Under the pieces are notes generated by a model. That model was not told the DNA's origin, searched no databases, and saw nothing but the letters and a program-made list of their open reading frames with translations. Both the position numbers and the translations under genes were made by a program. A DNA stretch of 64,000 bases from Hericium rajendrae (lineage: Eukaryota; Basidiomycota; Agaricomycetes; Russulales; Hericiaceae). The DNA lies in the NCBI GenBank assembly GCA_033439255.1, contig CM065881.1, positions 2,046,001 to 2,110,000 of the forward strand. The letters are read 5' to 3'. Of the stretch, positions 9,827 to 57,033 are shown one piece after another; position 1 is the first letter of the stretch, and every line of letters starts with the position of its first letter.

Positions 9827-11590
9827 CTATACAGCGGATGAGAACGAATCGGCAGCACCTCTCCTGATATCCAGAACATCGTCCATCTCGATCACTTCCT
9901 CAGGTATCACAGCCTCAGCAGGAAGACTGCTCACGCCTCCTTCCGAGCGGGAAACTGCCGATGGTTCAAGCAATGAACCACCCGTCCGTGCTCCTGTGGA
10001 CGTCGGTGATGTTTGGAAGCCAAAGACCATTTGGTCGCGAACAGTAGACTGATCAGCATGGTCGGTAGGTGCGTAGACCTTGTATAGATTCATCATCAGA
10101 CGGGACATGAGCGTGACCGATATGCTGCGAATAAGGTAACGTCAAGTGTATACCGGTGACCAGAAGTAGTCAATATGGAAACACAACGTACCAGCTTGTC
10201 AAAGTCGAGAGGAAGCCTTTCAGGATGGGCTGACATGATGATCAATATCTTGTATATAGAATACCATTCGGAAGTAACAGACCTCCGCGAGCTGTAGCGA
10301 AACGATTAGCTTACAATTAAAAAAAAGTTCAAGACACACATAGAAAGTCAGAAGGTTTGCGACATTAGAGACCACCATGACGCTACGACGGTCTGTCAAT
10401 TTCGCCAACAAAAACTAAGGGTGATATTGATGATAGATGCTCACGCAAAATATAAAGCACCTAAGGCAAGAGGGCATGAGAAGATACCGACAGAACATAC
10501 ATTCAGACCTACCATCACGAACGATGACGTCTGCCAGGCTCATATGCCTTCCATTAATGTTATCTTTCATTCGATTTCGCCGGGTCTGCAGTGTCTCGAG
10601 GACAGTGAGGACAAAAATTGTCAGATCGAAAACAGCTTGTGCCTCCCAGACTGTCGCCAATTCTGAAGTGATAGTCATTGGCTATCCGTACTGCGAATGA
10701 TACAAGATGGGTACTTACTCACACCCCTGGGCACACGGGATTAGGTCAGATTAAATGAAAAAAGGATGCAAACTCACGCCTCCCTCGAGATGGATGGATG
10801 GCAACTTTGAAGATCGGGGGTCATACTGTTGTCCTGGCCGACCAGAGCCCACTGAACCCATCGGGCATAAGTTAAAGCCATTTAACAAGAGTATTAGCCT
10901 GGACGCACGATGCTGAGAGCGACCGCAGCAATGGCCATACAACCGATAAGCCATGCAATCCTTCGGGAGCAACTGTACAGGGCGTATGTTCGCAAGGCAA
11001 GAAGTACTGCCATAAGTTGGCATGTTCAGTCAGGTCTGCGACATGCAGAAGTTGCTATTTGATAGACGTACGGCATACGACAATTTGATTTGCTGCAAGA
11101 AGGAGTTGTCGAGCAAGCGAGTATTTCCGGCATCTAAACCCCACTGAGTTTGTATCCTCCTTTAAAAATCGTGACCGTAGCCAACGCACTTCTAACAGGT
11201 TTACGCAAGCAGTTAGCAAACACGAGACTGTTTCAGATATAGATATCCTACCTCCTCGGATGCTTTCAAGCTAGACAAATCGTACACAGCAACTGCAACG
11301 TTCCCAAATAATGGAATATACCGATTGACGAGAAAACATAAAGCGGCTTTCGAGAGCGGATCTTTTAACCAGACGTAAGTGATCTCCGCAGGAAGGGTGA
11401 TGAGGTAGTCGTAGAAGAATATGGCTGTTTAGTAAATAATGTATTAACGGTGAGGTGTATAGCGCTGAAGCGAAGACTCACTGAAGGCGACCAAATCAGT
11501 ATGAATGGCTCTACGAAATAGATGTTCGTCCGTCGACTTGACTAGGATTTGCATTAACATCAAGCCCTACGTGGAATTTGTCAAGCCCAT
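9827..11590 (-). CDS. DUF6533 multi-span membrane protein, copy 2
   Basis: Paralogue of the gene at 4833-6611 with the same exon plan. It starts MGLTNSTAIHTDLVAF and continues TIFFYDYLITLPAEITYVWL and RYIPLFGNVAVAVYDLSSLK. A hydrophobic segment (LLLALRTYALYSCSRRIAWL then IGCMAIAAVALSIV), the loop WALVGQDNSMTPDLQSC and a helix TVWEAQAVFDLTIFVLTVLE follow. The last exon has SRLMMNLYKVYAPTDHA and the acidic tail EEVIEMDDVLDIRRGAADS, ending FSSAV. Frames are open in every exon I could place, so this copy looks intact. Function is unknown. As in copy 1, one acceptor after the DUF6533 domain is unclear. No kinase gene follows it, unlike copies 1 and 3. Confidence 0.78.
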
Positions 11591-12507
11591 CGCAGGTAAG
11601 GGCGATACTGACGCAAAATAAGAGCGGCGACAACCTAGAGCAAGAAAGTATGCAGAGCAAGTGGCAACTGTACCTCTGGTGAATCATGTGGATGCGCAGG
11701 CTGTTATCTTGAACAAGGAAAGAAGGCGTAGATTAAGTACTATGCAGAGCCGTGGCCGGTGTCTTATTCTAAAGATAATATGGATACTAACGTGGGAGAC
11801 TTTGCTCCCCAGCGTGTACAGCGTGAGGACGTATAGCGTCGCATCTGGAGCTGAGCGCTGAGGTACAAGTTCTAATGAGACCGTCGTCCAACAATAGACA
11901 ATGCCTTCCATGCAACTTACCGGGACAGAGATCTACATTGACGACGGTCACCACACTACTTCAGTCTTATGCCTCTACTTGTTGGTTGTAAATCTGCCGC
12001 CGTAGACTGACGAGGAACCGACGACCGATAAAAGTGCTGCTGGAGTCTCGCTGATCCGATGGGGTCGAAACTAGTCAGACTGACAATCTCCATCTGTGAT
12101 ACACTGCAACTCAGCTGCATATCCCGACGGCAACTTACCTACCATTGACATGATGATCATCTACAACTCGGTCAACTCGTATTTGCCGGCTTTCGTTGTG
12201 CCGAAACAAGTAGCCCCCTTCTAGCTCCCGCCGGAGTTCGGATATACAGAACTGCGTTGGGGTCGTGCAATGGGCATAGCCCGGCCGAACCATCGAACTT
12301 TAGCAACAGAAAAGCGCGGTTAGCACGTCTGGAAGACATATCATTATCAAACACGCACACATGAAACACAGGGAACCGGAGCCTAGCTCGCACCTCGACA
12401 TTGATCAACGCCCAAGTGAACGGTAAAATAGATTGCCCACTTCATTTGTTCCTTTTATCTTCTCAATGGCATGATCCCAGCTTTACTATCCATGCGCGAG
12501 GATGAGA
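11591..12507. other. Conserved module spacer, copy 2
   Basis: Diverged copy of the spacer at 6612-7548. The right end (about 12170-12470) aligns with 7150-7520 and 14710-15000, including ACACGCACACATGAAACAC and CACTTCATTTGTTC. No gene is called. Confidence 0.5.
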
Positions 12508-14246
12508 TTATATGGCAGACGAGGACGACTCTGCAGCACCCCGCATATCCCGTATATCATCCATCCCGACCACTCATTCGGTATTCATAGCTTCCGTATA
12601 CCAGCTATTTCTGCCCTCCTCCAGACCATGAACGGCATGCAGTTTGGTCGATGGACTGCTTACAGATGCCCCTGCTGGCGCTGGATGGGAAACCGATGCC
12701 AGCTCGTAAACAATGATACCGTCGGTATGTGTGGAGGCCTCGTATAGATTGAGCATCAGGCGAGACATGAGTGTGACCGAGATGCTACGAATTGGTCAAA
12801 TTCAGGCATATGTCCACAAGTGGTCGAGATGGAAGCGCAACATACCAGGTTGCCAAAGTTGAGAGAAAGCCTTTCAGGACGGGCTGATATGATTGTCAAT
12901 TCTAGTGTGCAACGAAAAGTACGGAGGCAAGGAACAGACCTCCGCGAGCTGCAGGCATCCTGTTAGCTTTGAAAAAGTGATAGCTCAAGACGTACATAAA
13001 AAGTCAGGATATTTGCGACATTGCAGACTACCATGGCGCTGAAAAGAACCATCAATCTACTCGCAAAGCATCATAAGACGATAACGGATGATAGAGGCTT
13101 ACGCAAAATATAAAGCACCTGTGATATGAGGCCATCAGACAAGCTCGAAAAAGTTAGCATTTGAACTAACCATCCCGGAAAATGACGTCTGTCAACTGCG
13201 GTCCCTTCTCACGAACATTCTCCATCATACACTCTCGTCGGGTCTGCAGCGTCTTCAGGATGGTGAGCACAAAGATCGTGAGATCGAACGCAGCTTGCGC
13301 CTCCCAAAGTATCGCCAAGTCTGATACACCGTGGTTGGAAGACATTCGCATCACGACTTATGCAAGATGGGTACGTACGCACACCTCTGGAGATAGGAAT
13401 TAGATATAAGGCGAGTTGGAAAAAAAAAACGGGGACTCACGCGGAGGACGAAACAGCCTCATGGCAACCGTGTACATCAGGGGCCTTGGTGTTGTGTTGG
13501 TTGACAAGAGCCCACTAGATTCGTCTTGCATAAGTCAAAACAAGAGAGCATCAGCACGAGACTAGACGTACGCCACCGAGAGCAGTCATCACAACGGCCA
13601 CGCAAATCATGAAACAGGTAATCCTTCGAGAGCAATCGTACAGAGCATATGTTCGCAAGGCAAGAAGTACTGTGTAATCGTGTCCAGTGAGCCTTGCAAC
13701 ACGGTCGAAGCATTGTTTGACATACGGCATACGACGATTTGATTCGCTATAAGAAGTAATTGTCGAGCAATCGTGTATGCATGGCACCTGATAAACAAGA
13801 CATGAGCCATTTCTTCAAAGACCTATGATGACTCTCGGCGAACCTCTATCGTGATGGAGGGAACAAAGACTGTCAGCAAATACAAAAATATTTCAATAAA
13901 TAAACCCACCTCTTCAGATTTTGCCAAGCTAGAGAAATCGACCATGGCGATTGCAACATTCCCGAAGAACGGAATATACCGATTGACGAGAAACCATAAA
14001 GCCGGTCTCGAGAGCGGCTTCCTCAGCCAGACGCGAGTAACTTCCGTAGGAAGAGTGATGATATAGTCATAATAAAAGATAGCTATCGATAAATTGAGCG
14101 ATGCCTAGCTATGAGTAAGTGAAGACTCACTGAACGCAATAAGTTTCGCTCTGTCGTACGCGATTGTCAGTCAGGACTATGATATGCGCGTCAAGCTAGC
14201 AATTGATCACGACTTACGCCACCTCGAGATCCGCGATTGAGCCCAT
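12508..14246 (-). CDS. DUF6533 multi-span membrane protein, copy 3, early stop
   Basis: Third paralogue, most diverged. The start reads MGSIADLEVAAKLIAF, then TIFYYDYIITLPTEVTRVWL, RYIPFFGNVAIAMVDFSSLA, and later ARQLLLIANQIVV and ALRTYALYDCSRRI. The helix DLAILWEAQAAFDLTIFVL and basic TRRECMMENV follow. The last exon starts SRLMLNLYEASTHTDG. A TGA at 12574-12576 ends the frame after AMNTE, but the same frame continues as VVGMDDIRDMRGAAESSSSA to a second stop at 12508, clearly matching the acidic tail of the other copies. So the protein has lost its last 21 residues or so. Whether it still works is unknown, because the membrane domain is unaffected. Confidence 0.72.
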
Positions 14247-15036
14247 CGGAGGTAAGGGTATCAACAATGAGGCGATCTGAGCGGTCAGATATCAGGAAGC
14301 CTAAGATAGGAAGCCTGAGATACGAGGGCAGAGCAAGTGTTAAATATGCCTCCGGGAGATATCGGAATGTGCAGAGCTAAACAAGGAAAAGAAAAGCAGA
14401 AGCGGGGATGGAGTAGCGTGATGAAATTTCCAGATTTATCCTTTCGCAAGGACCCGAACATCATTGCCTTTGGGTTAGAAGTATCGACAGTGAGGCACAA
14501 ACCACGTACACTGGTGAAGTTTCATCAGTACATCAGCTTGTTCCCGTGGGTCGCGAGTTGAGATCAGAGGATCACGCGAAACGCGAAACGCGAAACGGGG
14601 AAGACCGAACGGCGGCCAGATCATGTTGCAGGTATTTGTGATTTTGACGGGCTGTTTTTTTTTTATCCTCTAACGCAGCATTGCTGCTATAGTGACGCGA
14701 ACCATTGATATGGTGTCCACTTACGACTCACGGTCAACTCGCACTTGCTGAACTGTTACATTGTGTCGCAATGAGCAGTCCCCCTCAGGGCGACCAACAA
14801 ACTGGACAGCTTCTCATCGGACCACTGATGCTTATAGTTAACAACGACACTGTTCGATACAGCAAGCACATCTGGAAAATACATCGTTAACACACATGCA
14901 GACACGAAACGCAAAGGACAGAAGATCAGGACGTACCTCGGCATCGACAAACACCAACAGATTGATGTGATACACTACTTACTTGATTTGCTTCTTTCTT
15001 CTCGATCACACAACCATGTCCACATCCTTATCTAGG
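14247..15036. other. Conserved module spacer, copy 3
   Basis: Spacer between DUF6533 copy 3 and the intact kinase, similar to the other two spacers in its right half. A direct triplet GAAACGC/GAAACGC lies near 14578-14595. No gene called. Confidence 0.5.
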
Positions 15037-17499
15037 TCAGTTGCCAACCAAAGCCTCCAGCAGCACCTTCACGCCCCATGCACCAGGGTCGGGCACACGC
15101 TCGCTCTTGAGCCTGTCTCCCTCGACATACGCACTGCGCCCCGCCTTCGCCTCCACATCGCGCGTCCCCTCCGCCGCCTTAGCCGCCGCCGCAACGGCAG
15201 CGCTCGCATCCGCTAACCGCCCGCATCAGCACACGCATCACTGAAACAAACGCATAACGCACCAGGCTTCGCCTTGAACGCCTCCACGAACGCCGCGAGC
15301 GGGTCCACAAGCGTGCGCGACGGCGGGCGCGCCCGCGTGTACGTGTACAGGCGCGCAAGCGCCGCGTCGAGCGCGGCCGCCCAGATCTCGGGCGTCGCGA
15401 CGCCGGGCTTGCCGCCCGCCGCGGCCGTGAGGCCTTGCGCGAGCGCGGAGAAGAAGATGGAGTACAGCGCGCCGCTCGTGCCGCCCATCTTGTCGACGAG
15501 GATGCCCGAGATCGCGATCGACCCGCCGACGACGTCTTCGCCACTCACGCTGCCCTTCTGCAGCGCGTCCAGAATAGCTTTGCAGCAGACGTCAGTGAGG
15601 ATCACGCGGATGCTCATGGGTAGAGCGTACCGTGCGCGCCGGACTGCAGCGTCAGTCCGCAGTCGCCGTCGCCCGCGATGTTGTCCATTTGCGTGATCTC
15701 GGGCTCTGCCTTGTCGATCGCGCGGCATGCGCGCTCCACCGCAGCGTTGAAGGCAGACGGGTCCTGCGCGCGCAACTTGATAGTGTGAGCCGCGTGAACC
15801 GGTGCCGTGGCCTTTACAGCGGGGACCGGGTCCCCTTGCACCGCGGCGACGAGCGCCGGGGGCGCGCCGGAGGACCACTTCCAGCCGGGGGCGGCGGTGG
15901 GCGCGTCGATGAGACGGAGAAGTAGGTCTGCCGGGGGCCCGGGGACGGACTTGGACGGAAGGAGCAGAAGGGTGATCGAGAAGCCGGGCATGTTCAAGCT
16001 CGTCTATATGAAGGCCGGTCAGCTTCAACGGAAAGACAGGATGAGATATCTGCTCGTACCATGAACGTGCCGCTCAACACCCTCTGCACGAGCACTTGTC
16101 TGCCCTCGAGGCTCTTCTCGACCTCGCGCACGATGGCTCCGAGTTCAAGCTCGCTGAGACCTCCGAGATTGTTGACCATGAGAACGAGCTCATCGTCTTT
16201 TCCCGTCAGCGGGAGGAAGGAGCGCTCGGGGTCAGTGGTCGACATAAGGAGGTCGAGAAGCTGCTGAACGAGGTCGTGCAGCGAGGGGACTGGCGAAACA
16301 CGCTTCGCGCCGGGTTCGTTGTGAATACCCATGCCAATTTCGATTTCGTTGTTGCCAAGCTGAGAGTCCGACGCAGCGGTACCGGGGACCTGCAACCAAG
16401 ATGAGGGCTCGTTTAGCGTGAATGGCGGTAAAGACGAAATGGCACGCGTACATGGCAATGTTCAGAGCCTACACCGATGGTCGCGGTATGGTTCGCGACA
16501 TATTCAGCGGTTTTATAAACATCGTCGAGACTGGCGCCACTACGGGCCAGGGCACCGGCGATCTTGTACACCAGGACAGTACCCGCGAGACCTCTGTACT
16601 AGCGGTTTAGCATATTTCCAGCACGCGACGGAGTGCCAGATATAATGGCGGACGGAGACGACTGTGTCGAAAAATAGACGAAGCGACCCACCTGCGACCA
16701 ACAATTGCACCCTGACTCCTTCCCACCGCAACATCATCGCCGACGACCAAGAACCGTACTCGGTCGGACTTTTCGGCGTGCTCGGCAGCGAACTGCTCCT
16801 TTGCAAGGCCGAAATTCAGTACGTCGCCCGTGTAGTTCCTTCGTCCTAGAGTCAATCCAATGATCGAAGTCGCTAGAAAATTCTTACTTGACGATGATGA
16901 GTGTCCTGCGGAAACGCAGTCAATATATGCGCATGTATATTGGAATGTTGACGTACCCCTTGTCATTATCGGCCACTTCTATGCCTCGACGAACTTGGTT
17001 CGGGCCAGGAGAGGCAAAGACGTTGCCACATACGGCAGCTGAGCGCCACGGCAGAGTAAGCCCCGCGTCTTTCAGATGGATTCATGCACAATTTACCACT
17101 CAGCATGCCATTGCCTGTGTTTAAAGCACATTACATGATGGGTTGCATTGAAGCGAAGAGTGTACTTACCAACGTAGCCTGCGTGTGCGGGTTCGTGGCC
17201 GGCGCCGCCACCGCAGATGATCGCAACCTTGGAGCGATCCGGCTCAGCGAGATAGACGACTGCGTAGGATCAGTCCATCGCGCTCGCTCTCTGTCCAGTA
17301 TAACCAAAACCAACCTTTTTGCTCCGCATCTAGCTTGACTTGTGGGTTGATAGTGCATAGACCCTCAAGTGACTCCGTCACGAGCGTAGAGGATGAGTTC
17401 AAGAAGTGCTTTGCTACACAATGATCAAGTCAGTCCGCGATCGCGTTGCATCTCGAATCTGAATGGCAGCCAGCGGCCACACGTACTCTGTATGCCCAT
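15037..17499 (-). CDS. Dihydroxyacetone kinase (DAK copy B), intact
   Basis: Cytosolic ATP-dependent kinase that phosphorylates dihydroxyacetone and often glyceraldehyde, feeding glycerol or C1 metabolites into glycolysis and detoxifying dihydroxyacetone. The first exon is 13 nt (ATGGGCATACAGA); splicing gives MGIQTKHFLNSSSTLV, as in other DAKs. The DhaK domain shows IICGGGAGHEPAHAGYVG, AAVCGNVFASPGPNQ, VKNYTGDVLNFGLAKEQ and VVGDDVAVGRSQG. It also has SEHCHVPGT, whose histidine covalently binds the substrate. The C-terminal DhaL domain has DNIAGDGDCGLTL, whose aspartates bind Mg-ATP, and DKMGGTSGALYSIFF. It ends VPDPGAWGVKVLLEALVGN. I could phase about ten GT-AG introns with all exons open, giving roughly 600 residues, the usual family size. 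Confidence 0.92.
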
Positions 17500-39794: not shown

Positions 39795-39799
39795 CATCC

Positions 39800-40286
39800 T
39801 GTAACGGATGGTTTATCAGTTACTACTATAGTCTTCTACTTTCTTACTCTTTTCTACTTGGCTTACTTTTCGAGTTTTGCAGAGTTTCCTTATTAGGATA
39901 GCTGAGTTTGAATCATGTACTTAGAGCGGATTTCCTTATTGGGAATAAGCATCTATCTTGCCAACTCACCACCATCTGTCTGCTTTTGTCTCAGTCTCTG
40001 CTTGTTCTCCTTATATCTGAAAGGTTCTCTTGGGATCCAACCCTCAAAGGAAGGTGTGTGGCCCCCAATACCCTCATCAGGAGGTCTATATCTGCTGCTG
40101 GCCCTCAGAGGAGGTGCCAGCTCATCACTCATCTGCTTGGCTGCAGGACTGAGGCATCCTCGGTTCTGTTAGCTCTAGCTCGTGGACTCTCTCTAGGAGG
40201 TCTACGACACCTTTATACCCTCCTCACTCGCTCGCCTACCTTGGACTTCCCGGACAGTAGCGGCTCGACCTCTATCGTCCGTTACA
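39800..40286 (+). repeat. 5' LTR of outer element
   Basis: 487 bp, TGTAACGGA...TCCGTTACA, identical by eye to the copy at 56547-57033. A frame of over 130 codons inside it is a coincidence, present in both LTRs. Confidence 0.93.
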
Positions 40287-41376
40287 AAGGTGGACATATC
40301 CGGAAGTCCACTTGTCTCTGGCTGGCTGGTGAGGACTTCACATGTCTCATTCAGTTCCCCTCTCCCTGGACGTGGCATCCATGTCCAGGTTCCTTATCTC
40401 AAGCGACGATGTCAAGTCGTCTTATCGCCATTTGCTGGAGAGCCGCGTTCTTGCTCTCCGGTCTCATTCCCTTGTCGACAGTGATCTTGTTGACAATGGG
40501 CTTGGTATCCGAGCCCATCAGTTTCGGATCAGGGAGCCCTTGCTCCACTTTGCCTTAGAGGTCATCGAGCAACTTCAATCGTTGCTCGATCAAGTTGGGT
40601 TTTGCCTGCCATACCCCCCGAGTTCTGTCTTTATGGTCGACAGGGATCTCGTTCTCTGTTCCTGTCTCCATGGGTCACCATCTCCCTGGGACGTTCGTTG
40701 GGCCTGGCGCACTTTGCAGGCACGAGTCGCCGAAGGTGTCGATATCCTATTCCAGTATGCAGGTGCTCTTCCTCCTGCCATCAAGACTCCTCCTCCTCCT
40801 CGAGTTGAGGACCTCAGGGACGTGGAATCCATGTCCCTAGCAGTCCCAGGAGCTCTCTACCTTCGCACAGAACATGTCCCATGTGTTCTCCGGCCACTGT
40901 CTGTTGACGCAAGACTCGCTCGGCCATTCCAGGCCTCCTCCTCCTCTGGGCAGCTCCCTGCCTCCAGCTCCTCCTTCGGCCCAATTCTGGCTGCTTGGAG
41001 GGCTCTATATGCATCTCTAGTCCTCATAGAGATGCTTCGCTCATCGCCCTATCAACAGGGCCTTGCCTCGAGAACTCCCATGCCGAGGAGAGGGTCAGGG
41101 AGCCTGGTAGTTCACCCCCTCTCTAACTCTCTCATTTCTGGACGGATTCCCTCGGTTTCTTTTGTATCCTATTCGCTTTTCAAACGCTTTCCACCTCGCT
41201 TCAAGTCCAGGAGGCTGGGGGGGCTGTAGATCGCTGAAATCAGGCTCTGTCAGGCGATGTAGGGAGGGTTTGGATGCAAATCGTGCTTTGTACGTTGCCC
41301 CTGCTCCTTAAACCACTCCACCATCCTCTTTGCCTTTTCAAACGCTTTCGAATGAGCCCAAGAACGTCTCAAGCGC
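40287..41376 (+). other. Outer element interior, left part
   Basis: Sequence between the outer 5' LTR and the Gypsy insertion. It has open frames of up to 295 codons but no retroelement domain that I recognise. Near 41208 it holds CAGGAGGCTGGGGGGGCTG, which recurs near 54405 in the right part. Confidence 0.6.
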
Positions 41377-42353: not shown

Positions 42354-42824
42354 TTGGTTTTGGCTGCCGCCTCCATTCCCAGGGTCCACACATCATTTTG
42401 GAGCCCACCGCGAGGGTTCCATACTCAAAATAGAGCCGCGTCGTACTAGGAGTAGCGCACGGTCGAATCCAGATCGTACCCTCGAACAAGAAGTCCGTGT
42501 TGCGACTCAGGACCCTCAGCAAGTTTCCCCGACCTACCGTCACCTTTCCCGCCGGTTCCAACTCCCACTAGTCCCCTTACTCCCATCGACGAAGAGTTCG
42601 AAATTCCCGAGCTCGAGCGTTCCTTCATCGTTCCTACTCCACCCGTATCGCCAACTCCGGCGCCGCGACCCCTTGCCGGCCCCTCTGCTACCGCGGGTCC
42701 TAGGACAACGCCGCACCAGGCGACTTTCCCTGCTACCCCCCGTCCCCCTTCTCCTACTCAACAACACAGCCCGCTAGCCCCTGCACGTTTCCCCTTCCCC
42801 AGGCCACCAAGTATCCAACCAGTC

Positions 42825-45332
42825 ATGCCGCCCCCCTCCATGCCTATGCGCGGCGAGAGCGGTGCTCCCAAGTTCGACACCAACTCCCCCCGCGAGCTGG
42901 GCCGTTACTTCCTCGATCTCGAATTTTGTTTTCAGCGTTCCTCCGTGGCAGATGACGCGGAGAAAAAGAGTCATGCGGTCCGTCTCCTCTCAGACGTTGA
43001 CGCACAAGAGCTGTGGCGGTCCGAGGCCAAGTACGCCGCCGGCACTTGGGACGAATTCAAGAAAGCTATCCACGAACTCTACCCGGGCTCGGCTAAGGAG
43101 AATACCTTTTCGCGTCAAGATTTGGAGTCACTCGTCCACCGAACTGCCGAGTCCACCCTCAGTTCCGTCGGCGAACTTGGTGCGTTCTCGCGCGAGTTCA
43201 CGGTCATCACGCGCTACCTGAAAGGCAAGAACCGCATCTCCGATATCGAGGAACAACGCTGGTTTTTGGCGGCGCTCCCCGAACGTCTTCGCCTGCGGGT
43301 AGAGGACCGCCTTGCTCTTACCAAGCCTGATCACCATCCCGACGATCCGCACCCGATCAACGACGTCTATAGGGCCGCAGAGTGGTGCATGTATGGCACT
43401 GCCATCACCCCCGACCCGTACCTGCGTGGACCGTCGTCAACTCAAGCCACCGCGTCGTCATCAACCGCCGATGCAGGCTCAGGGACGACTATCCAGATTA
43501 AGAGTGAGCAGTTAGCGTCACTGGCCGATATCCTCTTGAGGAGCGCGCAGCAGCCGTCGCGTCAACCGATGGTCTCCGGAGGTAATCAAGGCGCGCCAAT
43601 GCGCGGGCGAATGGGGTCGGATCAGTGCAACTTCTGTGGGAACGTGGGGCATTTCGTGCGCGAATGCATGACAGCCCGGGAATACATGGCCGCCGGCAAG
43701 TGCAAGAAGGACGTCCAAGGCAAGATGGTCTTACCCTCTGGGGCTTGGCTCCCGCAAGGACCCCCAGGCGCGACTATGGCCGAACGGATCGACGAATACC
43801 ACCGTATGAACCCCAATCAGCGAGCCACGGGTCAGCTTATGATGGGTGTAGCCGGTACCCACCAGGCAAGTTCGCCGCGGGCGGGGCTCCCTCCCTACGG
43901 CTATCGCGTCGCGCCGGCATACGCTCAGACCACCGCGTCCCCCTATACCCAGGTCCAGGCAGGGTTGTACCAGCTCACCACAGACGCGCGGATCGAGAGC
44001 CTGGAGGGCGAGCTACGGCGGTTATACCAGTTGAAGGACGCCTCGGTTGTGCCCCCACCCAATGCCGCGGCCAGCCGTGATAGAGCTAACCGGGCGTTGG
44101 AACGAGCTCGCAGGATGGAAGAGCCTGCCCGCCAACCAGCCCCTCCACGATTGCCCCGTGCGCCGCCGCGCCCGACCATCGAGGACGAACCAGAGCCGCC
44201 GCGGGCGTCCCTGCCCCCTCCGCAAGCTTCACCGGCCCCAGGCCCGGAACGAGACGTCCCCCCCCACCTTCTATCTCAACCTGCGGTACGCGACGACCTC
44301 CGCGACCCTGATGGTCCCGTCCACCCATTTGCCAGAGCCCGCGACGGTGCAAGGCCCGCGCAAGTCCCAGTGATCGAAGTAGTCGAAGAGACGGGCCCAA
44401 CCCGTCGTGCGCAAGACTCAGTCGGGCAAGACGTACTGGACCGCGTGTTCGCGCGCGCCATGTCCCTCCCTATCGAGGTCACCCAGGGCGAGCTCTGGTC
44501 CCTGGCTCCTGCACTACGTGCAAAATACAAGGAGGCAGTCTCACGGCGTCACACGCGTCCGGTGGCGGGACAGAACCTGTTGGAAGTCCTTAACGAGACT
44601 GACCTGCTCTCCGAGCTGCCAGGTGAAGATGCAGTCGAGGAGCTGGCCTCGCCAGCGCGTCAAGTAGAGCTCGCTGCAGGTATCCAGTTCGCGAGCGAGC
44701 CCGCCGAAGGCGACCGTGTGCAGCATCCGGCCTCGCCCCCTCATCCACGAGTATCTATCCTTTCGCACCAGTGCGCCGAGCCGCCGGAAGGTGCTGTCGT
44801 CCTCCCGGATCCCTACGAGCAGTACCTCAAGCAACTCCGCCCGGACGAAAAGCCTAAACCCCTGATCGTCTCGCGCGAGTCTGCGGCGCTGCGTTCTATT
44901 GCAGCACTCATAGATCATCAAGAACCGGTCGAGTGCATCTTGGACCCAGGTTCTCAGGTCATCTCCATGTCAGAGAGCGTTTGCTACACCTTAGGCCTGT
45001 CGTATGACCCCACGATTATCCTCACTATGCAATCCGCCAACGGCGAACTTGATGACTCGCTGGGCCTGTGCCGAAACGTGCCTGCAGTCTTCGGCAACAT
45101 TGTTCTCTACCTCCAAATACACGTCCTCCGGTCGCCCGCCTACGATATCCTACTCGGACGCCCCTTCGATGTGCTTACCGAGTCAGTCGTGCGCAGCTAC
45201 CGCAATGAAACACAGACCATCACCATCTTCGACCCAAACACCGGCGAAGCAGCCACGATCCCCACCCACCCGCGCACTGACATTCAGTATACGCTCGCGG
45301 CAAAGGAGGATTTTCGCGCTTCGATGATTTGA
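42825..45332 (+). CDS. Gypsy gag with zinc knuckle and protease
   Basis: One long frame of the Gypsy element. The N-terminal half is capsid-like, a CCHC zinc knuckle (CNFCGNVGHFVREC) lies near 43627-43668, a long Pro/Arg-rich linker follows, and an aspartic protease domain with the DPGS core is near 44940. Part of the element at 41377-53484; the true start could be upstream. Confidence 0.85.
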   Translation: MPPPSMPMRGESGAPKFDTNSPRELGRYFLDLEFCFQRSSVADDAEKKSHAVRLLSDVDAQELWRSEAKYAAGTWDEFKKAIHELYPGSAKENTFSRQDLESLVHRTAESTLSSVGELGAFSREFTVITRYLKGKNRISDIEEQRWFLAALPERLRLRVEDRLALTKPDHHPDDPHPINDVYRAAEWCMYGTAITPDPYLRGPSSTQATASSSTADAGSGTTIQIKSEQLASLADILLRSAQQPSRQPMVSGGNQGAPMRGRMGSDQCNFCGNVGHFVRECMTAREYMAAGKCKKDVQGKMVLPSGAWLPQGPPGATMAERIDEYHRMNPNQRATGQLMMGVAGTHQASSPRAGLPPYGYRVAPAYAQTTASPYTQVQAGLYQLTTDARIESLEGELRRLYQLKDASVVPPPNAAASRDRANRALERARRMEEPARQPAPPRLPRAPPRPTIEDEPEPPRASLPPPQASPAPGPERDVPPHLLSQPAVRDDLRDPDGPVHPFARARDGARPAQVPVIEVVEETGPTRRAQDSVGQDVLDRVFARAMSLPIEVTQGELWSLAPALRAKYKEAVSRRHTRPVAGQNLLEVLNETDLLSELPGEDAVEELASPARQVELAAGIQFASEPAEGDRVQHPASPPHPRVSILSHQCAEPPEGAVVLPDPYEQYLKQLRPDEKPKPLIVSRESAALRSIAALIDHQEPVECILDPGSQVISMSESVCYTLGLSYDPTIILTMQSANGELDDSLGLCRNVPAVFGNIVLYLQIHVLRSPAYDILLGRPFDVLTESVVRSYRNETQTITIFDPNTGEAATIPTHPRTDIQYTLAAKEDFRASMI

Positions 45333-48300
45333 TCGAAGATCAAGGAGAGGTCGCCTTCATCGTTGATTTCGACTCGGAGACGCCGCAAATCACGGCTTAT
45401 GCCGCTATACCCCCAGAATGTTCCGAAAACCCAGAAAAACGCCAAGATCATCTTCAATCTCTTTATCTCTATGCCTGTGATGCCTCGCTTCTCGACTCTA
45501 GTCCGGGGGGTCCTTCGCTTTCGGATGCCCCCGATAAATCTAATTTGTTGTCCGCCTTTCTCTCCGCTACAGCCTGCAAGTCCGCTTCCGCTTCCAAGCA
45601 AGGTCGCCCGGGTCCGCCGCCTCCTGGCGCGACGGATACCGGTCCTCCTGTCGCCTCTTACGCCGCAAAGAAATACAAGCCAGTTGCCCAAAAAGTCCGC
45701 CCAGTATTTACGGACCTCCCCGAGCGTTTTCGGGTTCTCCGTAACATCAAAGGCGACCCTCTCCAAGACCTGCCGGAGTTATCTCCCAATCCGCCCCCGT
45801 TCGCTCCCACCGCCCGCTATACCGAAGAAAGAAAAGCGGTTATCGATCGCGCCCATCCAGAAGGTTTCCTCTGGCCCTCCGAGCGCGACCTACTCCACCA
45901 TTTCATGTGTCTCCACGATACCGCCTTCGCCTGGGACGATTCAGAGCGGGGACATTTCCGCGAAGACTTCTTCCCCTCAGTGGTTATGCCGGTGATACCG
46001 CACACCCCCTGGGTCTTGAAGAACCGTCCAATCCCGCCAGGCATCCATGACAAGGTCTGCGAGATTATCCGTACCAAGATCGCCGCCGGCGTATATGAGC
46101 CTTCGTCGTCGTCATATCGCTCACGCTGGTTCTGCGTCACCAAAAAGGATGGTACAAGCCTGCGCATTGTGCACAGTCTCGAACCACTCAACAAGGTCAC
46201 CATCGCTCACTCGGGCGTCCCGCCTTTTACCGACCAGCTCGCCGAGCAGTTCGCCGGGCGTGCTTGCGGCGGCATCCTCGATCTCTACGTTGGTTACGAC
46301 GAGCGACTCTTGGCGGAGGAGTCCCGCGACATGACCACGTTCCAAACCCCGTTCGGGCCCAAACGGCTCGTTACGCTGCCCATGGGGTGGACGAACTCCG
46401 TGCCTATCTTCCACGACGACGTTACCGAAATCCTCCGGCCAGAAATCCCAGCTGTCACCATGCCCTATATCGATGATGTCCCCATTAAAGGCCCAGCTAC
46501 CCGTTACGAGTTGCCCGGCGGAAATTTTGAAACTATACCCTGGAACCCAGGTATTCGTCGCTTTGTCTGGGAACACTTCCAGGGCGCGAACCGTGTCGTC
46601 CAACGCATGAAATATTGCGGTGGTACCTTCTCAGGGAAAAAGACTGTCCTTTGCGCGCCGGAAATCATCGTCGTCGGCCATAGATGCACGCCGGCGGGCC
46701 GTTTGCCAGAACTCAGCAACCTCGCCAAGGTCAGCAACTGGCAACCTTGTACCGACCTCTCGGACGTTCGCGCTTTCCTCGGGACCATTGGCGTGGCCCG
46801 CATCTTCATCAAGAACTTTGCAAAACGTGCTCACCATCTGGTACGGCTTACGCGCAAGGACACCCCATTCGAGTTCGGCCCAGACCAGTTGGCTGCGCAG
46901 GAAGACCTTAAACAAGCGCTACTCGCATCACCCGCCCTGCGCGCGATAGATTACGAGTCTCCCGCCTCAGTGATCCTGGGCGTCGACACCTCCTATATTG
47001 CCATCGGTTACCTACTCTGTCAACAGGATGTGGACGACCCCAAAGTTCGCCGGTATGCTCGCTTCGGCTCTATCGCCCTGAACGACCGTGAGGCGCGCTT
47101 CTCCCAACCAAAGCTGGAATTATATGGCCTATACCGGAGCCTTCGCGCACTCAAACTCTGGCTCATTGGCGTTCGCAACCTGATTATCGAAGTCGACGCC
47201 CGTTATATATCCGGCATGCTGAATAATCCCGATCTCGCCCCTAGTGCGTCCATGAACCGGTGGATCGTCGGCATCCTCATGTTTCAATTTACCCTGGTCC
47301 ACGTCCCTGGCGAGAAGCATGGGCCGGATGGCCTCTCCCGGCGCCGCCCCCAGGACGATGATGCGCCCGAACCCGACGACGACTTCGACGACTGGGTCGA
47401 CCGTGCTTATGGCTTTGTACACATAATAAATGTGCCTCGGATCGGCCACGACCGCCCTCAGCTGGCCCAACAGCTCATCTCGACCAATGTCGCCGCCGGC
47501 GATTTTGTCGCGCCTCCTCCGCAAGACCACTTGGCGTCCTACGCAGACGTTCCAAGGTCCGAAAAATCCCTCCTCACGGATGCCCGACTGCGCGCCGTCA
47601 CCGACTTCCTGCTCCATCCGATCCGCCCTGACGGACTGACGGACCGGGAATACGCTCGCTTCCTGCGTTATTGCCGCGACTTCTTCATGAAAGGTGGCCG
47701 CCTCTGGAAGCGCGACAAGACAAATGCGCACAAACTAGTGCTCCCGCCGACCGGCCGCTGGGCTGCTCTCGTTGAGACTCACGAGTCCGCGGGACACCGT
47801 GGCGTCGCCGCAACCGCCCTCCTGCTCGCGGTCCGTTTCTGGTGGCCTTTTATGGGCTCGGATGTCGCTTGGTTCGTCCGTTCGTGCCATATTTGCCAAG
47901 CGTTCCAGATCCGCAAAGTTCTTATCCCGCCAACGGTTGCGGTGCCCGCGCCTTTATTTGCGAAAATGTACATGGATACCATGCACCTGCCGAAATCCAA
48001 CAATATGCAATACCTGGTCCAAGGGCGCTGCTCGGTGTCCCACTTTCCCGAATGGCGCATGCTGCGCAAAGAACGCAGCGAGCACATTGCTGATTGGATT
48101 TACCAAGACATCTTGTGCCGCTGGGGTATGCTCACCGAAATCGTGTCCGACAACGGCGGCCCGTTCGTTAAAGCCTTGACGCAGCTGGAAAAGAAGTACC
48201 ACGTCCGGCATATCCGCATCTCGGGCTATAACTCGAGAGCCAACGGCATCGCTGAGCGTGCACACTTTGACGTACGCCAAGCCCTGATCAAGGCCGCCGA

Positions 48301-49033
48301 CGGCGTGGAGAAGAATTGGAGCTACTCAGCCCACTCCGTGTTCTGGTCGGAACGTATCACCATCCGCCGGCGCATGGGCTGTTCCCCATACTTCGCGGTA
48401 ACCGGTACGCACCCCCTGATGCCGCTCGATATCGCGGAAGCCACCTACCTGCTACCGCCGCCCGAGGCGATCTTGTCCTCTACCGACCTGATCGCCTCCC
48501 GCGCTCTTGCCCTGCAGAAGCGTCAAAAGGACCTTCAGCGACTTCACAGCCGCGTCTACGAGGCCCGCCTCCAGGCAGCACGAAAATTCGAACTGGAACA
48601 TGAACGCACGATCCGCGACTTTGACTTTCGCCGCGGCGAACTGGTACTTGTCCGCAATTCCGCGTACAGCACCAGCCATTCCCGGAAGACCAAACCGCGC
48701 TACCTAGGCCCGTACCTCGTCCTCGGCCGCAACAAGGGGCGTGCTTACCTCTTGTGTGAGCTCGACGGTACGTTATTCGACCGGCCCACCGCAGCCTACC
48801 GCGTTGTCCCGTATTTCGCCCGTACCATCCTCGATCACCCGCCATTGGAAGATTTCCTCGATGTCGGCATCGAGCAGTTTGAACGTTTACTCGCCTCCAC
48901 CGTCACAGACCCGGATGACGAAACCGCCGGCAGCGACCTCGGCGGGTCGACAGGTCCCGACCAAGTTCGCCCGCGGCGTCCTCTGACCACTCGACTAGCG
49001 AGGAGGACTGAGGGCAGTCCATTTTTCAGTTAG
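45329..49033 (+). CDS. Gypsy pol: reverse transcriptase, RNase H, integrase
   Basis: This frame overlaps the end of gag by 4 nt and lies in the -1 frame, consistent with the ribosomal frameshift used by many Gypsy elements. The RT has YIDD near 46466, RNase H spans about 46960-47330, the integrase HHCC zinc domain is near 47770-47920 and the integrase core near 47960-48300, followed by a GPY-like segment near 48700. The order RT-RNase H-integrase places it in Ty3/Gypsy. It looks whole. Confidence 0.88.
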   Translation: MIEDQGEVAFIVDFDSETPQITAYAAIPPECSENPEKRQDHLQSLYLYACDASLLDSSPGGPSLSDAPDKSNLLSAFLSATACKSASASKQGRPGPPPPGATDTGPPVASYAAKKYKPVAQKVRPVFTDLPERFRVLRNIKGDPLQDLPELSPNPPPFAPTARYTEERKAVIDRAHPEGFLWPSERDLLHHFMCLHDTAFAWDDSERGHFREDFFPSVVMPVIPHTPWVLKNRPIPPGIHDKVCEIIRTKIAAGVYEPSSSSYRSRWFCVTKKDGTSLRIVHSLEPLNKVTIAHSGVPPFTDQLAEQFAGRACGGILDLYVGYDERLLAEESRDMTTFQTPFGPKRLVTLPMGWTNSVPIFHDDVTEILRPEIPAVTMPYIDDVPIKGPATRYELPGGNFETIPWNPGIRRFVWEHFQGANRVVQRMKYCGGTFSGKKTVLCAPEIIVVGHRCTPAGRLPELSNLAKVSNWQPCTDLSDVRAFLGTIGVARIFIKNFAKRAHHLVRLTRKDTPFEFGPDQLAAQEDLKQALLASPALRAIDYESPASVILGVDTSYIAIGYLLCQQDVDDPKVRRYARFGSIALNDREARFSQPKLELYGLYRSLRALKLWLIGVRNLIIEVDARYISGMLNNPDLAPSASMNRWIVGILMFQFTLVHVPGEKHGPDGLSRRRPQDDDAPEPDDDFDDWVDRAYGFVHIINVPRIGHDRPQLAQQLISTNVAAGDFVAPPPQDHLASYADVPRSEKSLLTDARLRAVTDFLLHPIRPDGLTDREYARFLRYCRDFFMKGGRLWKRDKTNAHKLVLPPTGRWAALVETHESAGHRGVAATALLLAVRFWWPFMGSDVAWFVRSCHICQAFQIRKVLIPPTVAVPAPLFAKMYMDTMHLPKSNNMQYLVQGRCSVSHFPEWRMLRKERSEHIADWIYQDILCRWGMLTEIVSDNGGPFVKALTQLEKKYHVRHIRISGYNSRANGIAERAHFDVRQALIKAADGVEKNWSYSAHSVFWSERITIRRRMGCSPYFAVTGTHPLMPLDIAEATYLLPPPEAILSSTDLIASRALALQKRQKDLQRLHSRVYEARLQAARKFELEHERTIRDFDFRRGELVLVRNSAYSTSHSRKTKPRYLGPYLVLGRNKGRAYLLCELDGTLFDRPTAAYRVVPYFARTILDHPPLEDFLDVGIEQFERLLASTVTDPDDETAGSDLGGSTGPDQVRPRRPLTTRLARRTEGSPFFS

Positions 49034-49467
49034 GGGGAGTAGAGGCCGTCAGTCAAGCGTGTCGACGACCTTGGACGCCCCACCAATACCCACACGCACG
49101 AAATAAATCTATTGTTACTTGCATTTCGACAAACTCGCCTTGGGCGATCTTCATACCATCCACCACTCAGATGTTACCTTCACCAATCGTATAGGCCCTG
49201 ACAAGATCGCCTGGGGCGACTTTGTTTCTTTCTGGTTTTCCCCTTTAGATTCACACAGGTTCAGACTTCAAGATGGGCTCCCATTCGGCAGGAGCAACGA
49301 TACAGTAGGACTCGGCGTCCCGATTACGAGCGACCTATAGTAAAAAGCCGGGCCTAAGGCCCGGGCAACACAAAACGTATGCGACAACTTCCACGACGAC
49401 AAAACAAGATAGCAAATTTAAAAGGGGAGGGTCTTTCCCTCCCCGCGCAAAGCGACAGCCCCGCTCG

Positions 49468-51388
49468 TCAGGAGTCAGCCGGCACGACTTCCTCTGACGC
49501 GGCCACCTCAGCGACAGGAGCCGCCGTCGGCTCCAACGGCTCACCAGGACCCTCGACCGAAGGAACGGGGGACTCCCTCGCGAGCGGGCGCGAAGACGGA
49601 CCCGCGGTGGGACTCGCCGCGGCCTCCTCCTCTGCGTCGCTAGCGGCGTCCGCAGGCTCGTCCTTGGCGACCTTGCCCTCTTCATCCGCCTCCGCCGCGA
49701 TATACTCGCCGCGCGTGCCCGTATAGAGGGCCGTGACGAGCCTCTCGACGGCGAGGATCTGGCCGTGGTTCGACATGCGTTGGAGGTACAAACCGACGAG
49801 CTGCCGCTCGGTCTCCGCAAGCAGGGTGCGGCGGAGCGACGAATCGCGCGGAATGCACACGTAGGGGTCGACGTAGTCCCAGGCCCCTGGACGGAAGCCG
49901 TTGGAGACCGGGAACGGAAGGCGAGATGCGAGCACCTCGAACGGGGCTGTAGGATGGTCATCCGGTCAGCAAACGCGTAGCAACAGTGGGGTAGCGACTT
50001 ACGGAGCGCGCCCGCGGAGTCTGGTATCCCCGGCAAGACCACGGGGGAGTCGGCCACCTGGTCGCGACCAGAAGAAGCCGCGGCGGCGCGCGCAGCAACG
50101 GGATCCACGACGGGCGCACCCATCCGCGTCAGATGCGCGTTGAGGTCGACACAGGCGAGGCAGGAAGTGCGCTTCTCGCTGCACTCGCAGCATCGCTCGT
50201 GCTTCGCGCGCCCGACGTTCTTCGCAGGGAGGACCCGGCGGAGGCACTCCTTGCCCTCGTTGATGCACGCGGTGCACCACTGCTCGGGCAGGCACTACGC
50301 AAACAGAAAATTAGCGTCGAGCACAGGTGGAGGAGATGGGTACTTACCGGACCCCACTTCTCATCGGGCTCCTTGGCCTTGGCCTTCCCTTTCCCCTCGT
50401 TCGCAGCGACGGCGCCAGCCGGCCCCGTACGCGCCCTCTTCGCCGGCGGGGGCACTTCGACAATCTCGTCCCCCGCCTCCTCCTCCTCGACAGGTGCTAC
50501 GGCCTTGCGCTTGGCCGCGCGAGTCGCGGCGGACACTGGAGCGTCCAGAGCCGGGTCTACGTCCCGCTCGGCGGACGCGTCTACAACACCGGTGGCGGTC
50601 AACAGGGCGGCGACTTCGAGGCGGTCTTGCTCACCGGTCTGCGAGCGGGGCGGCGACGGAGCCCTGGTGCGCGTGGAAGACGAGGCCTGCGGGGTCTCGT
50701 TGGTTGGCGCGGCCGCCCTTTTGCCCTTAGGGGGCCCTGTCTTGCGCGTTGAAACGGGCGCGACCTGCGCGGGCCCCTTGCCCTTGGGTGTCGCGGCCGC
50801 GAGCGGGGTGTCGTCGTCGCTCTCCTCGAGCTCGTCGGTCTCCCGGTCCTCTGTCTCGGTCGGGTCTTCGGGGGGCTCGAAGACGTCGAGCACCTTGGCA
50901 CCCCACTTGCGGTCGGACTTCAGCTCGAGGCGGCTGAAGACTACACGGGCGTCGGCGATCCCGCGACGGAAGAAATCGTTGTCGAGGTGGGTCGGTCGAC
51001 CTCAAGAGAGGGCCCTGTCAGGAGTGGTGGTCAGCGGGGACGGAAGCAAAACGTGCGCCGGCGGACTCACCAAGCAACTGGCAACCTGGGTGATCCACTC
51101 TGCCCAGACATTGCCGGGGTCGCCTTCGCGCGGGTGGCCTGACCCGAAGAGGCGTTCGAGAGCCTGAATACCCTTGGGGCGGTTGTCGACGTATGCGCGA
51201 GCCATGGGAGACGAGGTGCTGAGGAGCGAGTCGCCTCGCAACTCAGTGTTCATAAGGACTCCGCGACAAGACGGAAGCGCCTGGCGAATTGCCTCCGGAG
51301 AAGCCCCCGCGTACAGGTAGCTTCGCAGCTTCGCGCAGAAGCCCGCGACGCGGGCACCCGGCCAAAACAGTTGTCGCTTCGGACTCAA
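49468..51388 (-). CDS. Antisense cargo gene 1: Cys-rich acidic protein
   Basis: Not recognised. Several exons on the minus strand inside the Gypsy element. The 5' part starts MSPKRQLFWPGARVAGFCAK. The middle is acidic and Pro/Ser/Lys-rich with a likely nuclear signal (PPPAKRARTG near 50450). An exon after a GT-AG intron (50297-50346) carries a cysteine cluster, CLPEQWCTACINEGKECLRR and later CCECSEKRTSCLACVDLN, arranged like a double zinc-binding motif. The last exon ends ASEEVVPADS at 49468. Exon borders in the 5' part are uncertain and I cannot say whether the gene is whole. The cysteine cluster and nuclear signal suggest nucleic-acid binding; that is inference. Confidence 0.55.
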
Positions 51389-51558
51389 TCAGGATCTCAG
51401 GCCCCGATTGGCGCCCATTTGTCATTTCAGCCGCGTCTCGCGAACAGGAAGCCTATTCAACGACGGGCAAGTCCCACAGACAGCATAGTGCGCCTTGGCA
51501 CCAGAATAGTTCAATTGAGCGGCGAGGCATGCTCGCCACCGGCGTACATCGTACTATA

Positions 51559-52311
51559 CTAATCCGCGGCCCCTCCCGCGACCCTGTCACGGGCGCCCTC
51601 CTCGTCTGCTCGGTAGGGCGGAAGCCGCAGCAGCTCGGCCAAGTCGAGTGCCTCCGCCACTAGGCGGTGCATCGTCTCTAGCTCATGCGGATCCTCGCTC
51701 ACCTCTCCCCCGGCGTCTTCCCACGGCAACTCCGGCGCGGAGACCGCTTGATGCAGCCTGGCGAACAACGGCTCCAGAGCCCGCTTGCAGGCCTCCGCGT
51801 CTATGACGTCATACTGGTACTTGCGGCAGGTGATATCGATTTCCTCCAGGGCCACCGCGCGGCGCGTCTCCCACAGCTCGGACTCGGCCACGGACAGGCG
51901 GTCCGCGGCATCTACCTGATGGTGCTCCAGGGAATCGAGCCACTCGCGCTTCAGCGACGGCATGAGGTACCAACCCCAGTCGAGCCAACGGCGGACTTTC
52001 CCGGACGCGCGGGCGGCCTCGGACAGGAAGTGGTCCGACATCTGCGTGATGTCATCCTGCAGACCCACGTCGATGGCGCCAGCGTAGCGCTGGTAGTCCT
52101 TCTGGAGTCCCGAGAATTAGCAGGTACGCAACAACGCCGCAAACGAGCTTGGACGTACTACGGCGACCATGAGGTCTCGACCCCAGATCTCGCGTTCCCG
52201 GATGACCGCGTCGCGCTTGGACAGCGTGGACGCATCGAGCGGGGTCCACGAGCGCTCCGAAAGGAGCCAGGTCACTTTCTGGCGGAAGACTTGATCAAGG
52301 AAGGTGTTCAT
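51559..52311 (-). CDS. Antisense cargo gene 2: helical protein of unknown function
   Basis: Not recognised. It begins MNTFLDQVFRQKVTWLLSER about 200 bp from the 3' LTR, pointing away from it. After a GT-AG intron near 52103-52157 it continues through VGLQDDITQMSDHFLSEAAR and VRRWLDWGWYLMPSLKREWL, then LSVAESELWETRRAVALEEI, a mostly helical, charged protein of about 210 residues ending VAGGAAD. It lies head to tail upstream of cargo gene 1 on the same strand. The antisense strand of the 3' LTR could supply a promoter. Confidence 0.55.
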
Positions 52312-52508
52312 CGGGACAAGACTGCCGGGCGCGAAGATGGCTCGGAGTTGAGTGCCCTCCCGGGGCGTAGATGCCTTTTATAGGCTCGCTGCAGCACACC
52401 CGCCCAGGGCGCCGTCGCACAATCGGCTTCACGCATGTCCGCGCCCGAATCCCTCGTGGGGCTCCAGATTAGACTACGGAGAGTCTAAATTTTCAGTTAG
52501 GGGGAGAA

Positions 52509-53484
52509 TGATGCGCCCTTTAGCGCGCCTTGCAACGGCATTGCCCACTCCCGCCTCCTTGCCCGTCCCGCTTCACTTCACCTCAGCCGCACCAAGTCCG
52601 CCCACCGCGACGTTGCTCCCCGCACAGGACAAGCGCCCCCACGGGTTCGGGACCGACCGGGTCGGACTAAAGCCGGCGTCCCGTGGTCCGATGCACCGAA
52701 CGGGCAGGAGATCAACCGGCCGGACGAGTCAGCGGCACAGGAACAGAAGCGCGCCCAGAGAACCAGCCGGCTCAATCAACGCGCCCTCGAACGCCCCACG
52801 CCCCCGGATCACGAGCGGCGCCCGCGACAGTGCGCTACTGACGTCATCCCAGCCATTCAAGCTCGACGTGCCCGCCGTTCCCGACGCACGCCCCGGGCGA
52901 CGTTGTAAGGCGGCACCTTTGATTCGTTCGTACCACGCGCACGCCCTCTGCCCTGCACGGGCCGAGTCGCAACGACTCCACTCGCCAAGGGACCCGGAGC
53001 AGGCAGGATCAGGAAGGAATTGGAGATTGGGTCGGTCAGCGGGAGGTTGTCGTAGGGAGTCGCGCCGGGCCGCCAGAGGCGGCCTTGCCCATTTGTACCG
53101 TAGCTACTGACTTAGAGAATCGGAACGGAATCTGCCTTTTTCCCCTCAGAGCTCAGATCTCACAAAGCCCGCCGTTTGACGTTCTCACCCCAGTCTCTAA
53201 GCACGTCTCAGACGTAGCTCTTCTCACTTTCTCGTGTCGCTCATCATATTCGTCGTACTCGTCGCCGCGCCGTTATCTACAAGCCGTATCACCTAAGACC
53301 CGTGAGTCTTGTCGTACCGTCATCGTCCCTAGCAGAGCCGTGTCGGAAGTCGCCCGCGCGCAGCAAGCTCGCCCTCCGCGGCCTTGCTCCCCTACCCGTA
53401 GTACGATCACCCGTCAGCTACACGTCTCGGCGCTCCCCTCTTGAGATACTTGGTCCCCTCGCACCCCCCGGTACTCTGTTGGTT
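52509..53484 (+). repeat. 3' LTR of Gypsy element
   Basis: Second LTR of the element at 41377, 976 bp, preceded by the purine tract TTAGGGGGAGAA. Confidence 0.9.
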
Positions 53485-56400: not shown

Positions 56401-56546
56401 TCTAGATTTTTCTCTGATTTTTCTACTTTAACCTTTTTTCTTCTTTTCTAATTTTGTCTTGTTCCCTTTCTGCTTTGTTCATTCTCAGCTTTGCACTACT
56501 CACTTTGTGTTCAGGAGTCTCAAAGACCAAGAAAGTGGGGAGGCTC
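53485..56546 (+). repeat. Outer element interior, right part: degenerate tandem repeats
   Basis: Non-coding sequence in which a GCGGATTTTTGCA-like motif recurs near 53877, 54192, 54989, 55307 and 55463, and a GAGCCCTCATACGTCC-like motif recurs near 53757, 54080, 54866, 55190 and 55503. Spacings cluster at about 315-320 bp with one of about 156, so a unit of ~157 bp or its double is likely. The last ~250 bp are TC-rich (TTTTTCACTCTAA repeated). No retroelement protein is visible. Confidence 0.6.
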
Positions 56547-57033
56547 TGTAACGGATGGTTTATCAGTTACTACTATAGTCTTCTACTTTCTTACTCTTTT
56601 CTACTTGGCTTACTTTTCGAGTTTTGCAGAGTTTCCTTATTAGGATAGCTGAGTTTGAATCATGTACTTAGAGCGGATTTCCTTATTGGGAATAAGCATC
56701 TATCTTGCCAACTCACCACCATCTGTCTGCTTTTGTCTCAGTCTCTGCTTGTTCTCCTTATATCTGAAAGGTTCTCTTGGGATCCAACCCTCAAAGGAAG
56801 GTGTGTGGCCCCCAATACCCTCATCAGGAGGTCTATATCTGCTGCTGGCCCTCAGAGGAGGTGCCAGCTCATCACTCATCTGCTTGGCTGCAGGACTGAG
56901 GCATCCTCGGTTCTGTTAGCTCTAGCTCGTGGACTCTCTCTAGGAGGTCTACGACACCTTTATACCCTCCTCACTCGCTCGCCTACCTTGGACTTCCCGG
57001 ACAGTAGCGGCTCGACCTCTATCGTCCGTTACA
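56547..57033 (+). repeat. 3' LTR of outer element
   Basis: 487 bp, identical by eye to 39800-40286, followed by the CATCC target duplication. Confidence 0.93.

Follow-up and report, generated by a model that had tools for sequence, protein, structure and literature searches.

The retrovirus human T-cell leukaemia virus type 1 (HTLV-1) carries HBZ, a spliced antisense gene near the 3' long terminal repeat (LTR) whose bZIP protein is a nuclear regulator, and antisense open reading frames (ORFs) are also found in the LTR retrotransposons of plants and fungi. The plant ORFs of the aORF-3R type, namely Grande gene23 and those of RIRE2, Retand (TRP28) and PvRetro13, are suspected of having a nuclear or DNA-binding role, and Grande is reported to have a promoter of its own (PMC7264820, PMC11963269). 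The antisense promoter of HTLV-1 is placed in the 3' LTR by one of these reports (PMC7264820). Amongst fungi, the Boty-like elements of Botrytis cinerea have an additional antisense gene, brtn (Zhao et al. 2011, as cited in PMC7264820 and PMC8365987). The LTR elements of bdelloid rotifers possess family-specific ORF3s after pol, which are not all envelope genes and encode DEDDy and GDSL domains (PMC5408684).

We describe a window of 64,000 nucleotides (the whole stretch of DNA that was analysed) from the basidiomycete Hericium rajendrae (GCA_033439255.1, contig CM065881.1, positions 2,046,001 to 2,110,000 of the forward strand), which holds a Ty3/Gypsy element from the start of its 5' LTR at 41377 to the end of its 3' LTR at 53484. 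Between pol and the 3' LTR lies an antisense block of 3,467 bp, bounded by two identical 17-bp polypurine tracts, in which we model two minus-strand genes, here gene 1 and gene 2 and together the cargo, with four introns between them. These genes are inherited across the family, their four introns survive retrotransposition and the frame of gene 1 is constrained; on balance, the block is probably an antisense accessory module shared throughout one Ty3/Gypsy family. Since introns are normally lost on reverse transcription, their presence in a retrotransposon is paradoxical unless the gene that contains them lies antisense; here, 12 insertions, each with a perfect target duplication of its own, show four of them surviving.

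Like the plant aORF-3R, gene 1 and gene 2 lie between pol and the 3' LTR, antisense to gag-pol, which is the position that marks the class; they occur in most copies of the family and their conservation is comparable to that of pol, the gene compared, though weaker for gene 2 exons 1 and 3-4. They differ from the plant ORFs in being two genes with four spliceosomal introns, in residing in a fungus and in the lack of a match to TRP28 (Pfam PF04195) in any exon scanned. The word "intron" is absent from the main text of the Retand paper, which speaks for that plant system only. Boty brtn is likewise an additional antisense gene of a fungal element, but its host is an ascomycete and, as cited, it is a single gene. 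HBZ and the present pair are both antisense near the 3' LTR, HBZ being transcribed from that LTR, and we claim no homology between them. The rotifer ORF3s are also extra genes after pol, yet the text available does not describe them as antisense and their domains are other ones. The main text of a survey of fungal LTR elements (PMC3248453) contains neither "antisense" nor "intron" and, within the accessible portions of the open-licence literature, we met no basidiomycete element described as having an antisense pair with introns. An earlier note on this DNA, made from its letters, knew of no such pair described; that nothing of the kind is described is not supported, since antisense accessory ORFs are already known from plants and from Boty, and what is new here is the antisense pair, two genes with four introns.

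Gene 1 comprises two minus-strand exons encoding 231 amino acids and gene 2 four, encoding about 540 amino acids in the copies with an open frame. Other insertions of the family are considered below as 20 close copies (21 with the window) and seven divergent copies, and the element in the window is made up of the following features:

52311..52159, minus strand: gene 1 exon 1, gene model
52158..52102, minus strand: gene 1 intron, 57 nt, GT-AG in 19 of the 19 close copies covering it
52101..51559, minus strand: gene 1 exon 2, gene model
52374..52383, minus strand: TATA-box-like motif of gene 1, TATAAAA at about 52382, a consensus match only
51253..51071, minus strand: gene 2 exon 1, gene model
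51070..51015, minus strand: gene 2 intron 1, 56 nt, GT-AG in 20 of 20 close copies
51014..50348, minus strand: gene 2 exon 2, with an acidic stretch and basic motifs resembling nuclear signals (by eye), and a hypervariable palindrome near 50990-51000
50347..50295, minus strand: gene 2 intron 2, 53 nt, GT-AG in 20 of 20 close copies
50294..50003, minus strand: gene 2 exon 3, with a double cysteine cluster
50002..49947, minus strand: gene 2 intron 3, 56 nt, GT-AG in 20 of 20 close copies and lost in two of the seven divergent ones
49946..49468, minus strand: gene 2 exon 4, with an acidic C-terminus and the stop codon
41377..42395, plus strand: 5' LTR, 1019 bp, TGATG...CATCA, LTR alignment 99.6%, its true end taken from other copies
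42456..45332, plus strand: ORF1, gag with CCHC knuckle and aspartic protease, an open frame from stop to stop with weak Pfam matches
45281..49033, plus strand: ORF2, pol (reverse transcriptase, RNase H, integrase), whose stop codon falls within polypurine tract 1
49023..49039, plus strand: polypurine tract 1 (internal copy), just after a hairpin and identical in every copy displayed for it
52490..52506, plus strand: polypurine tract 2, adjoining the 3' LTR, with the same 17-bp sequence as tract 1
52509..53484, plus strand: 3' LTR, with its last ~40 bp missing from the window copy

The gene models are matched by a scan of 49043-52490 for introns of 48-70 nt with a GTRNGT donor, a CTRAY branch site and a YAG acceptor, which recovered the four modelled introns and no others on the minus strand and returned nothing on the plus strand. 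In 500 dinucleotide shuffles of the minus-strand sequence the mean was 0.11 introns and the maximum three, so that none reached four. The divergent copies that have lost a splice dinucleotide of gene 2 intron 3 are L034 and L035, and the TATAAAA motif sits ~70 bases upstream of the gene 1 start. The Gypsy element with two antisense, intron-containing genes that the earlier note had proposed is borne out by the models and the scan, and the block it had drawn, 49040-52489, fits the interval between the polypurine tracts almost to the base.

The assignment to Ty3/Gypsy (Metaviridae) follows from the order of reverse transcriptase (RT), RNase H and integrase in pol and from LTRs with TG..CA ends, 99.6% identity and, in other copies of the family, short target duplications. 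The RNase H and, after it, the integrase H2C2 domain exceed their curated Pfam cut-offs; the RT motif was recognised by eye, the Pfam scan listing no RT match, and the gag matches, zf-CCHC (E 0.0018) and protease (E 0.00012), are both weak and below the curated cut-offs. The ~40-bp 3' LTR end that is missing from the window copy is present in 17 of the 20 other copies read.

The genome searched, a 46.8-Mb assembly of 19 contigs that includes the window, contains 43 stretches matching the cysteine-cluster exon of gene 2 at 42 places, with 72-100% identity over the longer matches, and 50 matches to gene 1 exon 2, some of which are pieces of a single copy. Of these 42 places, 41 have a normally spaced polypurine tract on one side or both, and 26 on both, the 26 pairs spanning 3447-3519 bp within a search range of 3300-3600 bp; same-strand tracts also occur closer (one pair at 1137 bp, a shortened block) or wider, as expected from nested insertions. 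Amongst the exact tracts listed, which number 81, 76 are no more than 3.6 kb from a cargo match and the remaining five are on contigs whose cargo is farther away. After exclusion of one partial match, 31 of 41 places have a correctly oriented pol match no farther than 20 kb away (in 24 cases no farther than 5 kb), and over these 31 pairs (the 10 places without a suitable pol match being left out) the identities of cargo and pol are correlated with r = 0.94, the cargo being the faster-changing. We noticed no copy in which pol is joined to the LTR without the block, though no search was aimed at it. A one-off insertion or an artefact is ruled out by the 42 places, their polypurine-tract context and the target duplications described below; a block occurring only once, an outcome that the earlier note had named as refuting its proposal, is not what the genome shows. 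Four loci of sister elements, whose RT regions are about 50% identical, were read downstream of pol; none has the cargo genes (best E 1.3) and all carry a sense ORF in their place. The block is, as far as visible here, specific to the family of the window.

For 16 copies the 5' LTR and its flank were also read and, as L010 and L019 have truncated LTRs and are untestable, 14 could be assessed for target duplication. Twelve of these have perfect 4-bp duplications, the exceptions being L021, with one base different, and L012, with mismatched flanks; between the two LTRs of full-length pairs there are differences at 0-29 of ~1019 sites. The copies are independent insertions of differing age and, because all 12 with perfect duplications hold all four introns, the introns pass through retrotransposition, as the earlier note had anticipated. 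Their survival is probably due to the copied RNA reading them in the wrong orientation: we propose that the full-length sense RNA would hold the complement of each intron, which the spliceosome could not remove, so that the introns would persist.

Selection on the frames was assessed from single-nucleotide polymorphisms (SNPs) between copies. In the close copies, 63 of the 72 gene 1 SNPs and 243 of the 294 in pol are transitions at CpG, an excess that suggests CpG methylation, or a process resembling repeat-induced point mutation, in the host. As most changes are of this kind, expected counts were computed per mutation class; an uncorrected dN/dS of 0.25-0.55 against the divergent copies overstates selection, given the CpG transitions, and was replaced by the CpG-aware count. 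Of the 72 gene 1 SNPs, 36 are non-synonymous in the predicted frame, where the corrected expectation is 50.2 (z -3.7); the corresponding figures are 48 of 94 SNPs with 58.2 expected for gene 2 exon 2 (z -2.2) and 184 of 294 with 196.8 expected for pol (z -1.6). Read in either of the remaining forward frames, gene 1 and gene 2 exons 3-4 lack a deficit and exon 2 reaches z -0.6 at most; the reverse-strand frame that shares codon boundaries mirrors the deficit, necessarily so. Stop-making SNPs are not rarer than expected in the predicted frames (gene 1: 1 against 1.0) and, being as frequent as expected, are no evidence either way. SNPs common to at least two of all 27 copies give z -4.0 for gene 1 and z -3.0 for gene 2; shared SNPs from the 20 close copies give z -1.0 for gene 1, z -2.2 for gene 2 and z -2.4 for pol. 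We read these counts as a sign that gene 1 is genuinely constrained and gene 2 moderately so. A lack of conserved frames between copies, which the earlier note had also named as refuting its proposal, is not what is seen, the predicted-phase deficit of non-synonymous change being clearer in gene 1 and weaker in gene 2.

A number of observations weigh against an accessory role. The deficit is weak in gene 2 exons 3-4 (63 of 111 SNPs non-synonymous against 69.8 expected, z -1.3) and in exon 1 (11 of 18 against 12.7, z -0.9), and the close-copy signal of gene 1 resides in singletons (z -3.7), where selection on transmission would predict otherwise. When the exons of each copy, the window included, are translated without repair, the frame of gene 1 is open in 16 of 20 copies (L026 not covered) and gene 2 is open in eight and broken in 11 of 19 (L025 and L028 incomplete). 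The window copy is itself broken in gene 2 exon 2 under the gene model, being two bases shorter than the commonest state at the hypervariable palindromic site. Compensation of indels within the frame of gene 2 was considered and rejected, the frame being kept in five of 13 copies with exon 2 indels (hand count), no better than chance. Besides the window, pol is free of stops and indels in three of 16 fully covered copies, and part of the 1-base indels may be assembly errors. Finally, Pfam and PDB searches found no credible domain or fold, and AlphaFold models of gene 1 exon 2 and gene 2 exon 3 have predicted local distance difference test (pLDDT) scores of 44.5 and 42.1, too poor for a fold search.

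The palindromic site, at 50990-51000, is a perfect 14-base palindrome in 10 of the 21 close copies and differs from it by a single substitution in one more; the other 10, the window among them, show four other states of length or sequence. From six to nine changes are inferred on a weakly supported tree, and the site may be hypermutable, subject to strand-switching by the reverse transcriptase, or affected by assembly error.

The functions that we propose for the proteins are drawn from the cysteine clusters, from acidic and basic stretches picked out by eye and from the pattern of the known systems. Both genes would be transcribed from a minus-strand promoter of their own and spliced in the nucleus. 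With less assurance, gene 2 may be a nuclear, acidic zinc-cluster regulator and gene 1 its helical partner, and the two might jointly help the expression of the element or its escape from the apparent CpG methylation of the host. The doubling of the polypurine tract points to an ancestor in which pol was followed by one tract and the LTR; the block would have entered between these last two, with duplication of the tract. Fungal Zn2Cys6 regulators and KDZ-associated CxC clusters are look-alikes of the gene 2 cysteine clusters, but exon 3 matches none of the corresponding Pfam models; its only Pfam match is Trehalase, at E 0.47, below the cut-off. Two PDB matches, Translocon-associated protein alpha (E 0.028) and Phycoerythrin (E 0.88), are weak and look like composition or chance, and scans of IMG/VR with pol and with gene 1 gave no relatives. 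More tentatively than the accessory module itself, we entertain an obligate, self-promoted, intron-bearing two-gene unit that acts in trans, for instance as a transcription factor or an anti-silencing factor of the zinc-cluster kind in a host that appears to methylate CpG, its antisense placement letting the introns persist. Were this so, splicing would mark the mature mRNA as made in the nucleus and separate accessory expression from the packaged sense genome. If the proteins act, the family would offer, in a fungus open to experiment, a counterpart of the antisense accessory ORFs of plants and of the retroviral antisense regulators.

Somewhat unlikely, though the most serious of the alternatives, is that two neighbouring host genes were captured once between polypurine tract and LTR and have since been copied passively, with no help to the element. 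Introns of 53-57 nt would suit such an origin, as would a third-position GC content of 0.75-0.83, which lies within that of six host frames of the window (0.54-0.89) and above pol (0.67) and gag (0.66); the broken gene 2 frames and the lack of a relative at the four sister loci point the same way. Passive copying sits poorly with the frame-specific deficit of amino-acid changes and with family-wide retention of a 3.5-kb block, and a capture has no visible donor: genome searches at E up to 1 turned up neither a donor gene nor any other relative outside the family, and no donor was seen in Pfam or PDB.

It is improbable that minus-strand transcription over the 3' region, acting through double-stranded RNA or interference, is what matters and that the proteins are incidental. 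The TATA-like motif and the antisense orientation accord with a regulatory RNA, a possibility raised for plant elements (PMC7264820), but conserved splice sites and codon phase are not needed by a non-coding RNA. Least probable is that a two-gene DNA transposon, a mobile element in its own right, became nested in an ancestor of the family. Although direct repeats flank the block and the four sister loci lack it, those repeats are the polypurine tracts, the block ends are without inverted repeats, 41 of 42 places lie beside a tract with no free copies evident, and the Pfam scans found no transposase domain. Of the two readings that the earlier note had offered, captured host genes or an accessory module, the family-wide module is the likelier.

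The flanks of the insertions have a regularity of their own. The right flanks of the 3' LTRs of L009-L027 read N-C-G in 17 of 17 copies, three of the 20 having no LTR end, and all 12 perfect duplications have a central CG, which gives insertion at NCGN; the left flank in the window, 41366-41376, is among the flanks that bear on this. The sister copies L029, L030 and L032 also have NCG beside the LTR end, and the preference is for this reason probably a trait of the integrase. Integration guided by the cargo, an idea prompted by the NCGN targets and the gene 2 cysteine clusters, was rejected, as three of four cargo-free sister loci are also NCG (L031 not assessed).

The sense ORF of the sister elements encodes 390-460 amino acids (L029 at about 453-2677 and L030:4094-5476, minus strand), with 28-45% identity across families and no Pfam domain above cut-off. 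Out of 29 pol matches in sister elements, 13 have same-strand matches to it both before and after pol, the other 16 lacking them on one or both sides, in a count that used 47 of 57 matches; because they flank pol on both sides, the ORF appears to be encoded inside the LTRs. The sag gene of mouse mammary tumour virus (MMTV) occupies a comparable position, and this apparently LTR-encoded protein is possibly as interesting as the antisense gene pair. Beside one sister element, at L032:3157-3250, lies a 94-bp piece of the LTR end of the window's family. Elsewhere in the genome, at least 18 further places (on C2, C4, C8 and other contigs) have a polypurine tract that differs by one and the same base, a sign of a further repeat group bearing a related tract. 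In the window, a second repeat encloses the Gypsy element, its 488-bp ends at 39799-40286 and 56546-57033 being identical, and host gene-like units form a tandem repeat at 4778-16528, with about 71-82% identity over the longer matches.
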